Shown here one piece after another: positions 13,502 through 15,684 of a DNA stretch of 33,087 nt. A model generated the notes under the pieces. The model worked only from the letters and a program-made list of their open reading frames with translations, was not told the DNA's origin and made no database searches. The stretch is taken from assembly GCA_947467395.1 (NCBI GenBank), contig CANIIC010000023.1, positions 1-33,087 on the forward strand. Direction: 5' to 3'. The position numbers and the translations under genes were made by a program. Every line of letters starts with the position of its first letter. Within the stretch, counting starts at the first letter, position 1. Source of the DNA: Bryobacterales bacterium. Its GTDB lineage: Bacteria > Acidobacteriota > Terriglobia > Bryobacterales > Bryobacteraceae.

Positions 13502-13507
13502 CCGTGC

Positions 13508-13518
13508 TACACTGAGGG
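13508..13518 (+). promoter_or_regulatory. Candidate extended -10 and ribosome-binding site of the leader transcript
   Basis: TACACT (13508-13513) is preceded by TG at 13505-13506 in extended -10 spacing. GAGGG (13514-13518) is a good Shine-Dalgarno match 5 nt before the leader ATG at 13524. Both cannot act on one transcript, since a start set by this -10 would fall after GAGGG. Either the promoter is further upstream within the TPR gene, or the leader message is nearly leaderless. Confidence 0.4.
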
Positions 13519-13522
13519 TTCA

Positions 13523-13626
13523 AATGCCCCGTTTCGCCTACGAGTTTCGATTTTGGCACCGGTTTTACACCGGCTAGCAAACGAGTGGGCATTCGCACGA
13601 CTTAAGTTTTTTTAAGACCCGCTCGT
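13523..13626 (+). promoter_or_regulatory. Transcription attenuator: alternative leader RNA structures
   Basis: Segment 1 (AATGCCC-CGTTT, 13523-13534) covers the leader start codon. It can pair with segment 2 (AAACG at 13579-13583 and GGGCATT at 13587-13593, with a 3-nt bulge). Segment 2 (ACGAGTGGG, 13581-13589) can instead pair with segment 3 (CCCGCTCGT, 13618-13626) in 9 bp with one G-U, which consumes the left arm of the terminator. CTTAA/TTAAG (13601-13605 and 13612-13616) can stack inside this antiterminator loop. Segment 2 begins two bases after the leader stop, so a ribosome reaching the stop masks it and termination follows. A ribosome stalled at the aromatic codons leaves it free. Confidence 0.8.
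13524..13577 (+). CDS. Aromatic-rich leader peptide of the DAHP synthase attenuator
   Basis: This 17-codon ORF, too short for routine gene calling, encodes MPRFAYEFRFWHRFYTG. Seven of 17 residues are aromatic amino acids made by the shikimate pathway (Phe at 4, 8, 10, 14; Tyr at 6 and 15; Trp at 11), plus one His. It has a GAGGG ribosome-binding site 5 nt upstream, and its stop codon abuts the antiterminator segment. It precedes the gene for the first enzyme of aromatic biosynthesis. By analogy with the enterobacterial pheL and trpL leaders, ribosome stalling at Phe/Tyr/Trp codons would report charged-tRNA levels. No peptide function beyond its translation is expected. The assignment rests on composition, position and the surrounding hairpins. 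Confidence 0.85.
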   Translation: MPRFAYEFRFWHRFYTG

Positions 13627-13647
13627 AAGAGTGGGTCTTTTGTTTTT
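13614..13647 (+). terminator. Intrinsic terminator of the aromatic attenuator
   Basis: AAGACCCGCTC (13614-13624) pairs with GAGTGGGTCTT (13629-13639) through 11 bp with one G-U pair, around the loop GTAA. TTGTTTTT follows at 13640-13647. This is a strong Rho-independent terminator placed 49 bp before the DAHP synthase ATG with no gene between, so it must be conditional. The upper stem overlaps the antiterminator pairing partner. Confidence 0.88.
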
Positions 13648-13695
13648 AGGAGTCCCGCCTCTGACGAGCATCTGGAAAGAGGAGCAGTGAAACCA

Positions 13696-14736
13696 ATGAT
13701 TATTTCCATCCGCCGCAACGCCAGCCGGGAAGAGGTTGAACAGGTCCGGAGCCGGATCGAAGAGTTCGGCCTGAAGGTCCATTCCATCGAAGGCGAAGAG
13801 CGTGTTGTGATTGGCGCCGTGGGCGTGGGGTCGGCCGTGACAGCCTGCCTGGAAGCGCTGGAGGCGATGCCGCAGGTTGAAAAGGCCGTGCGCATCTCGG
13901 TGCCCTACAAGTTCGTCAGCAAGGAGTTCCGCGCGACCAAGACCGAGGTCAAGATCGGCAAAGTCACGGTGGGCGGCAGTGAGTTCGTCATGATGGCTGG
14001 CCCCTGCTCGGTCGAAGGCGAGAAGCAGATTTTGGAGTCGGCGGAGCTTGTTGCGAAAGCCGGAGCGCAGTTGCTGCGCGGTGGAGCGTTCAAACCTCGC
14101 ACGTCGCCTTACGACTTCCAAGGCATGGCCGAAGAAGGCCTGAAGCTGCTGGCCAAGGCTCGCGAAGTGACGGGGCTCGGGATCGTCACGGAAGTAATGA
14201 GCGACGCCGATGTGCCGTTGGTGGCTGAATATGCGGACGTGTTGCAGATCGGCGCGCGCAACATGCAGAACTTCGCGCTACTGAAGACACTCGGCAAGTG
14301 TGGCCGTCCGATCCTGCTGAAGCGCGGCATGAGCGCGACGGTGAAGGAACTTCTGATGTCGGCCGAGTACATCGTGGCGCACGGGAATCCGGATGTGATG
14401 TTGTGCGAACGCGGCATCCGAACCTTCGAAACGGTGACGCGCAATACCTGCGACATTGGAGCCGTGGCGGCGTTGCAGGAGATGACTCACTTGCCGATCA
14501 TCCTCGATCCCAGCCATGCGACCGGCAAGCGCAGTCTGGTGCCACCCGTGTCCAAGGCCGGTGTCGCGGTGGGTGCCGACGGCCTCATTGTCGAGATGCA
14601 CCCGAATCCGGAAAAAGCGTGGAGCGATGGCGCGCAATCGCTGTCTCCGGCGGAGTTCACGAAGCTGATGGCGGACCTGCAGCCGTACATCGCTCTCTGG
14701 AAAAAGGAGCGCGCGGCCGCGGCCGTGACGGCATAA
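13696..14736 (+). CDS. aroF: 3-deoxy-7-phosphoheptulonate synthase (DAHP synthase), type I-beta with N-terminal regulatory domain
   Basis: This enzyme condenses phosphoenolpyruvate with erythrose 4-phosphate, the committed cytosolic step of Phe/Tyr/Trp synthesis. At 346 residues it matches the Thermotoga/Bacillus group. A ferredoxin-like, ACT-like allosteric domain covers about residues 1-75, and a TIM barrel follows. The barrel has AGPCSVE (101-107, metal Cys), [12 protein letters not shown] (128-139), GARNMQNF (186-193), LLKRG (207-211), CERG (237-240) and DPSHATG (271-277, metal His). The ATG at 13696 is chosen because AGAGGAG lies about 11 nt upstream and the family usually starts MII-. 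An in-frame GTG at 13687 sits too close to that site. Expression is probably controlled by the aromatic attenuator immediately upstream, in addition to allosteric feedback typical of the N-domain. The next gene follows after 9 bp. Confidence 0.95.
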
Positions 14737-14745
14737 TCGAAGTAG

Positions 14746-15684
14746 ATGCGAAAGTGGCTCCCCGTTATCATTCTGTCCGCCGTGCTGTTGGGCGCGTCCG
14801 CCTACTGGTTCCATTCGAAGCCGTATGACGCGTCGCGCCTGGTGCAGATGTTGCCGCCGGACCGTTCGATCCACGTGTATCTGAACGTGGCTGCGCTGCG
14901 GTCTGCGGGGATTCTGGATACGATCGCTGGCTCGAAGTCGCTTGAAGATGCCGAGTACCGGAAGTTCGTCGACGATACGGGCTTCGACTATCGCAAGGAT
15001 CTGGATGAACTCGCGATCGCCTTCCGCGATGGCGATGTGTTCTATGCGGCGCAGGGCCGGTTCAATTGGGACAAGCTTGCGGCCTTTGCGCCGTCGCATG
15101 GCGGCAAGTGCGATCAGTTCATCTGCACCACGCCCGGCAGTCAGCCAGGCCGCAACGTGTCCTATTACATGCCGCGCAGTGGAACGCTGGCCTTAGCGAC
15201 CTCGCGCACGGCCTCCGCTGGAGACATGGTGGGTCCGGGCACGTGGCACGATGCGCCGATGATCGGCGACGCGGGGCTGTGGGTGTCGACGCCCCCGTTT
15301 GTGTTCGCGGATCTGAATAAGATGCCGGCGGGAACGCGCTCCTTCTTTTCGCCTCTCGCACAGGCCAACGCGGCGATCTTCACGTTGGGCAAGGCGTCCA
15401 ACGGTCGCGATGGGTTTGAGCTGCATATGGACGTGAAGACACGCGATGCCGATGCCGCCAAGAAGATGGCCGCGCAGTATCAGGAAGTGACGTCGCTGCT
15501 GGTGAAGATGCTGGAGCGCGACAACATGCATCCTAACCCGGCGGACCTGAGCGGCGTGTTGGTCGCGGGCAAGTTCGAAGCCGTCGAATCCCAGGTGATC
15601 GGTACGTGGCCGATTTCGAAGGCGTTCGTGGAATCACTGGCGTCCAACGTCGATCTCGGCGGCGGCAAAGAAGAAAAGAAGTAG
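14746..15684 (+). CDS. Membrane-anchored or secreted protein of unknown function
   Basis: The 312-residue protein begins with [22 protein letters not shown], an uncleaved anchor or signal peptide. The rest is extracytoplasmic and mixed alpha/beta. Visible features are [24 protein letters not shown] near the start, a short [21 protein letters not shown] segment with two cysteines that could form a disulfide, and a lysine-rich C-terminus (GGGKEEKK). The layout, with a hydrophobic leader followed by repeated strand-helix units assessing a threshold-like value, resembles uncharacterised acidobacterial proteins, but I recognise no domain. It follows DAHP synthase by 9 bp and is probably cotranscribed, so it may also be under the attenuator. 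Its stop codon directly abuts the stop of the convergent anti-sigma-like gene. Confidence 0.7.

Follow-up and report, generated by a model that had tools for sequence, protein, structure and literature searches.

The trpL and pheL leaders of Proteobacteria are ribosome-mediated attenuators built on a four-segment logic, in which a leader open reading frame (ORF), a protector, an antiterminator and a terminator follow one another. Acidobacteria abound in soil and have received little genetic study. The stretch analyzed here, hereafter the window, is a 33,087-nucleotide stretch of contig CANIIC010000023.1 (positions 1 to 33,087, assembly GCA_947467395.1) of a Bryobacterales bacterium of the Acidobacteriota, and the element under study lies at 13508–13695, upstream of aroF, which codes for a 3-deoxy-D-arabino-heptulosonate 7-phosphate (DAHP) synthase. 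All features of the window located below are on the forward strand. An initial annotation had read this segment as a trp-type attenuator in what looked like an acidobacterium; its anatomy, its conservation and the placing of its codons fit that reading, and we consider it highly probable that a ribosome-mediated (trp-type) transcription attenuator controls aroF, and probably also the next gene.

The element shares its four-segment logic with trpL and pheL, and differs from them by a leader mixing Phe, Tyr and Trp codons and by its predicted control of the first common enzyme rather than of a branch. It matches no Rfam leader family, either in the window or at seven loci searched. In Corynebacterium glutamicum, the AroR leader found before aroF contains Phe-Tyr-Phe and responds to Phe, not to Tyr (Neshat et al., 2014, as summarized in the available excerpt of PMC11802643). 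AroR is likewise an aromatic leader preceding a DAHP synthase gene, and expression under its control rises upon stalling at aromatic codons (same excerpt). By analogy, AroR appears to be the closest functional parallel of the element, although 43 of the 49 leaders described below also contain Trp, the phylum is another one, and the two were compared by description alone. The trpL leader of Sinorhizobium meliloti (rnTrpL; Alphaproteobacteria) is leaderless, a trait resembling the predicted start of the RNA studied here a few bases before its AUG; according to the excerpt at hand (PMC10117765), rnTrpL controls trpE by means of a 14-amino acid Trp leader, whereas the present element precedes aroF. 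The uORFC-13-1 motif, located upstream of aroF in Acholeplasma and also in environmental sequences, combines a U-rich, Phe-coding upstream ORF with a terminator and aroF; its description, on which the comparison is based, gives at least one Phe codon and, in the part available, names no Tyr or Trp codons (PMC8632094). In the accessible part of a survey of Actinobacteria, conserved RNA structures preceding Phe or Tyr operons were not seen (PMC1262725). In the literature searched, an element with a three-amino-acid leader acting on DAHP synthase in Acidobacteriota is undescribed, and the comparative survey of attenuators by Lopatovskaya et al. (2010) may list it. The mechanism is a familiar one, that of trpL, pheL and AroR; the unusual part is the three-amino-acid leader.

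The leader ORF (MPRFAYEFRFWHRFYTG followed by TAG; 13524–13577) extends from an ATG at 13524–13526 to a stop codon at 13575–13577. Seven of its 17 codons are aromatic (F4, Y6, F8, F10, W11, F14 and Y15), a number reached by 5 of 100000 mononucleotide shuffles of the ORF; the 17-codon, seven-aromatic frame of the initial annotation is thereby confirmed. A gene coding for a tetratricopeptide repeat (TPR) protein ends 22 nucleotides (nt) before the ATG, and the motif of an extended -10 promoter element (TGc-TACACT) is found at 13505–13513. A -10-like hexamer with at least four of six matches to TATAAT occurs 4–12 nt before the leader ATG at all 49 aligned loci of relatives, with a best spacer of mostly 8–9 nt, versus 8 and 13 of the 49 in control stretches located 24–32 and 34–42 nt before the ATG. 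Given the position of the -10 box and assuming the usual spacing, the leader RNA would begin no more than a few bases upstream of the leader ATG.

Conservation was assessed by reading the regions upstream of 62 orthologous loci, whose products are at least 55% identical to the query, and of 19 paralogues (50–54%). Lack of conservation of the leader ORF or of alternative pairing in relatives had been named beforehand as what would refute an attenuator. The outcome spoke for one: an ORF rich in aromatic codons, with a terminator after it, is present at 49 of the 62 orthologous loci, and leader ORF and alternative pairing were both found again at the further sites described below. No terminator was found upstream of any of the 19 paralogues. 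The relatives include Acidobacteriota, in part Bryobacterales (loci L031–L039). All 49 leader ORFs start with ATG, have 14–27 codons and contain 2–8 aromatic residues (median 6), with Phe, Tyr and Trp together in 43 of them, and Phe-Arg-Phe or a close variant is frequent. Aromatic codons account for 299 of 864 codons in frame (34.6%), versus 81 and 78 of 864 (about 9%) when the frame is shifted; of the 49 leaders, 26 have stops in the third frame. Because the most aromatic candidate ORF had been picked at each locus, the same picking rule was applied to dinucleotide-shuffled upstream sequence as a control: it yielded 12.7% aromatic residues, and 85 of 980 trials reached five or more aromatic codons, as did 43 of the 49 real leaders. 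Upstream of the 19 paralogues, the rule returned 13 ORFs with 5.1% aromatic residues, none of which had five aromatic codons.

A covariance model built from the 49 aligned rows found matches (E ≤ 1e-5) in 171 of the 237 family genomes. For the better assemblies of the family the count is 111 of 148, and for the order, whose genome set overlaps that of the family, it is 105 of 150. The figure of 171 of 237 is a count of matches rather than of proven attenuators, since these genomes also supplied some of the training rows and histidine leaders account for a few weak matches. Likewise, a scan of the phylum that gave matches in 52 of 396 genomes (E ≤ 1e-3) is no census, as many matches outside the order span only the terminator end of the model. 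A further set was formed by picking 60 sites among the matches listed, with one or a few taken per genus, and dropping 5 that repeated training rows. A leader was present at 53 of the remaining 55 sites, a proportion that is not a rate for all 171 matches because the sites were hand-picked from those listed; 342 of 990 residues were aromatic, and Phe, Tyr and Trp occurred together in 44 of the 53 leaders. The promoter motif was counted at 51 of the 53, which is not an independent figure because ORFs preceded by a -10 box were slightly favored in the selection.

Downstream of the leader ORF, the RNA can adopt alternative helices. The intrinsic terminator (13614–13648) consists of a stem (13614–13624/13629–13639) closed by a GUAA loop and followed by a U tract reaching 13648, and the pairing of its arms far exceeds that of shuffled sequences (z -7.9). 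Segment 3 (CCCGCUCGU, 13618–13626) is common to the terminator and to the antiterminator. Its antiterminator partner, segment 2 (ACGAGUGGG, 13581–13589), has a homologous core, GAGUGG(CGUUGG), which adjoins the leader stop in relatives; the two segments form 9 base pairs, one of them G-U (z -3.0 versus shuffles), that are mutually exclusive with the terminator. The terminator first placed at 13614–13647 and the antiterminator first proposed to exclude it both hold. Segment 1, the protector (GCCUAC and GUUU, 13536–13547), occupies a position conserved in the family, and in the minimum-energy fold of the window pairs with 13579–13582 and 13585–13590. A different protector had been put forward, an anti-antiterminator pairing 13523–13534 with 13579–13593, which amounts to a rival segment 1 at 13524–13534. 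Its pairings can form (AUGCCC/GGGCAU and CGUUU/AAACG), but the protector of the family is made up of the bases just before the Phe-Arg-Phe-Trp codons (13536–13547) and not mainly of the first codons, and it is weak in the window.

Helix 3:4, the terminator, is paired in 97.3% of the cells of the 49-row alignment, with 17 double-change cells versus 4.5 in shuffles, a score that none of 500 shuffles attained. Helix 1:2, the protector, is paired in 78.5% of cells (2 of 500 shuffles as high; recorded as "better in slid controls"), and across the family segment 1 prefers its own partner over a foreign one (p 2.3e-4), a preference that the control pairings 1:3 and 2:4 do not show. Helix 2:3, the antiterminator, is paired in 76.5% of cells on the plain alignment versus 31–45% in slid versions. 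In the plain alignment, two forms of segment 2 (GAGUGGG and GAGUGGCGUUGG) are combined, and some rows are misplaced. When 24 rows of the GAGUGGCG type were anchored on the core, 81.2% of the extension cells were paired versus 72.0% with swapped arms (1 of 2000). In 41 new rows of that type, the extension was paired in 87.4% of cells versus 84.3% with swapped arms (7 of 5000); as segment 2 was anchored there by best pairing, which favors the core, reliance is placed on the extension and on visible paired changes. Five of the new rows carry compensatory changes in the core itself, GAGCGG/CCGCTC at L250, L259 and L299 and GGGTGG/CCACCC at L295 and L302.

The aromatic codons and the stop codon lie where ribosome-mediated attenuation would need them to be. 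At the 43 of 49 loci that could be placed, 259 of 264 aromatic codons start 15 nt or more ahead of the segment 2 core, and the stop codon lies a median of 9 nt upstream of it; at 44 loci of the further set, the corresponding figures are 267 of 278 aromatic codons and a median of 2 nt. Folding was modeled for the RNA downstream of a ribosome whose footprint was assumed to end 13 nt beyond the first base of the A-site codon. In this model, segment 3 pairs upstream with a mean probability of 0.88 when the ribosome sits on aromatic codons, 0.35 when it is at the stop codon and 0.48 when there is no ribosome, and the value for aromatic codons exceeds that for the stop at 96 of 102 loci. In the window, the probability of pairing between segments 2 and 3 is 0.98 with the ribosome on any of the aromatic codons and 0.00 with the ribosome at the stop.

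The following course of events can be proposed. Transcription would start just before the leader ATG, and a ribosome would translate the 17-codon leader. When charged Phe-, Tyr- or Trp-tRNA is short, the ribosome would stall on one of the seven aromatic codons, leaving segment 2 (13581–13589) free to pair with segment 3 (13618–13626), so that no terminator would form; RNA polymerase would then proceed into aroF, and the amount of enzyme would very probably be raised under shortage. When charged tRNAs are plentiful, the ribosome would reach the stop codon at 13575–13577 and cover segment 2, segments 3 and 4 would pair, and transcription would end at the U tract. In many relatives, the segment located in the leader ORF would pair with segment 2 when no ribosome is present, which would also favor termination. 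The codons suggest that all three amino acids are sensed, as Phe, Tyr and Trp co-occur in 43 of the 49 leaders.

Several observations weigh against a trp-type attenuator, in the family or in the window. At 13 of the 62 orthologous loci, the layout is not intact or the scoring did not count it as such: no terminator was found at L009, L021, L025, L112 and L124–L129, L030 has a terminator preceded by a poor leader, L115 has a leader-like ORF without a fitting terminator, and L041 is a diverged version judged by eye alone. The leader ORF runs through segment 2 at 4 of the 43 placed loci. Regarding the helices, the alternative pairing is conserved for 3:4, for 1:2 and, on core-anchored rows, for 2:3, but on the plain alignment column covariation is absent from 2:3, whose share of paired cells is equaled or exceeded by 159 of 500 shuffles and which has 7 double-change cells versus 15.5 in shuffles. 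The other type of segment 2 gives no support from its extension in 19 rows (404 of 2000) and no clear support in 9 further rows (189 of 5000). In the window itself, the protector pairing 1:2 is not above shuffles (z +0.67), and the whole 201-nt region has a z of -1.98, 7 of 200 shuffles folding equally well or better. Without a ribosome, the antiterminator would form in the window with a probability of 0.93, compared with the family mean of 0.48, so that the termination independent of translation that is expected in many relatives would be slight here. Finally, the unconstrained equilibrium fold of the full window leader is the terminator, and antitermination must consequently be kinetic.

Among other explanations, a nascent-peptide attenuator fares best and is still very improbable. 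TnaC provides the model for nascent-peptide stalling at a stop codon. Here, the Phe-Arg-Phe-Trp stretch, while inside the ribosome tunnel, would bind a free aromatic amino acid; the resulting stall at the stop codon would cover segment 2, leading to termination when aromatics are plentiful. Many leaders do contain Phe-Arg-Phe or something close to it, and the stop codon adjoins segment 2, as such a device would have it, but the peptides vary greatly, MFAARRFWSYYFST, MLFERAYFWLSFSGD and MTNGTAYYWFWFSTSP being alike in codon class and not in sequence; moreover, the conserved bases of the Phe-Arg-Phe-Trp stretch also belong to RNA segment 1, and no constant distance from the motif to the stop was seen. 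Hardly any credence is left for a plain end-of-gene terminator followed by a separate aroF promoter, with the small ORF as a chance frame. That arrangement is common in general, and the TPR gene ends close to the leader, as noted above; against it, the promoter motif precedes the leader at all 49 aligned loci, leader codons and 2:3 pairing are conserved, and the layout persists with other genes upstream. Indeed, a homologue of the TPR gene is present at only 3 of 41 loci, and therefore the terminator is not simply part of that gene. A ligand-binding riboswitch or a T-box, which would also place alternative terminator and antiterminator structures before an amino acid gene, is the least credible of all, given that an in-frame aromatic ORF is superfluous for such devices and that Rfam gave no relevant match, the window having none at gathering scores, leader families and T-box included, and the seven loci at E ≤ 1 only an unrelated microRNA model (E 0.2).

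The gene placed under the predicted trp-type attenuator, aroF (13696–14736), codes for a 346-amino acid protein whose annotation as a DAHP synthase is supported by matches to PF00793 (E 2.5e-77), to the ferredoxin-like domain PF18152 (E 9e-17) and to NF006421 and TIGR01361 of NCBIfam (485 and 394 bits, each above its cut-off). Its start is most likely the ATG at 13696 rather than the GTG at 13687 of the mechanical ORF list, since the proteins of relatives begin with MI[IV]. A protein search of its own genome with the aroF product returned the product itself and one other match, with 31% identity; as this is the sole further match, aroF is the only clear DAHP synthase of its type found in that genome, other DAHP synthase types not having been sought. 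Nine nt after aroF lies a conserved neighbor (14746–15684), probably of the same operon, whose product has an N-terminal hydrophobic stretch and matches nothing in Pfam or NCBIfam. Its homologue adjoins aroF at 27 of 41 loci, some of the others being too short to tell. It is plausibly a co-regulated neighbor, presumably co-transcribed with aroF. At the aroF orthologue of one relative (L009, genome G004), a promoter-like box stands directly before the hairpin of segments 3 and 4, and the leader is apparently missing.

Other leaders were encountered outside the window. In the same genome, the covariance model also matched a histidine leader, MFVARHHHLHHGHIGHDLPRRAHS, followed by a terminator before hisI (L181, G000:C2:30199-30360), and a His-rich ORF with a terminator is present at 22 of 30 hisI loci of relatives. 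In two distant acidobacteria, an ORF that reads as TrpE-like by its sequence is preceded by a terminator and an aromatic leader ORF, MDVQPAGANNYFWCWYRQGGWSAF in one case (L154, G070) and a GTG-start ORF ending in NYAWRWYSSTRWAVS in the other (L179, G065). At L155, L156 and L157, in another part of the phylum (family f23, genus g67), a DAHP-synthase-like ORF is preceded by a terminator and a Trp-rich leader, either ANWFWWSWRF or ANWFWWPWHF. Considering these histidine, TrpE-like and other DAHP synthase leaders, leader-peptide attenuation looks like a general habit of the phylum. No Trp-rich leader with a terminator turned up in a scan of 30 TrpE-family loci, which took in only a minority of those present in the window's own family. 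At L166 (G254:C56:32457-32629), a leader-like ORF with five consecutive Cys codons, MTTISNTFSFRCCCCCNVTGVRG, and a terminator precede an ORF that reads as peroxiredoxin-like. Finally, in two Clostridia-type metagenome-assembled genomes (L072 and L081), Tyr-rich small ORFs, MFKNIFAYAYYFYYYYFQNTKVRVVCA and MNKKFYAFAYNYYYYFTNVK, lie about 195–200 bases upstream of the DAHP synthase match, where a simple scan detected no terminator.

A broader view, which we put forward only tentatively and hold to be somewhat doubtful, is that the element is a true three-input OR gate, in which shortage of any of Phe, Tyr or Trp would relieve termination of the common DAHP synthase and a single ribosome would integrate three branches, and that it represents an ancestral control of entry into the shikimate pathway in much of the Acidobacteriota, a phylum also using leader-peptide attenuation for histidine. 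The element is a conserved RNA that Rfam does not include, and its natural design may let a single leader sense three amino acids at the first step that their synthesis shares. It lends itself to a simple test of the weight given to each input by a leader of this kind.
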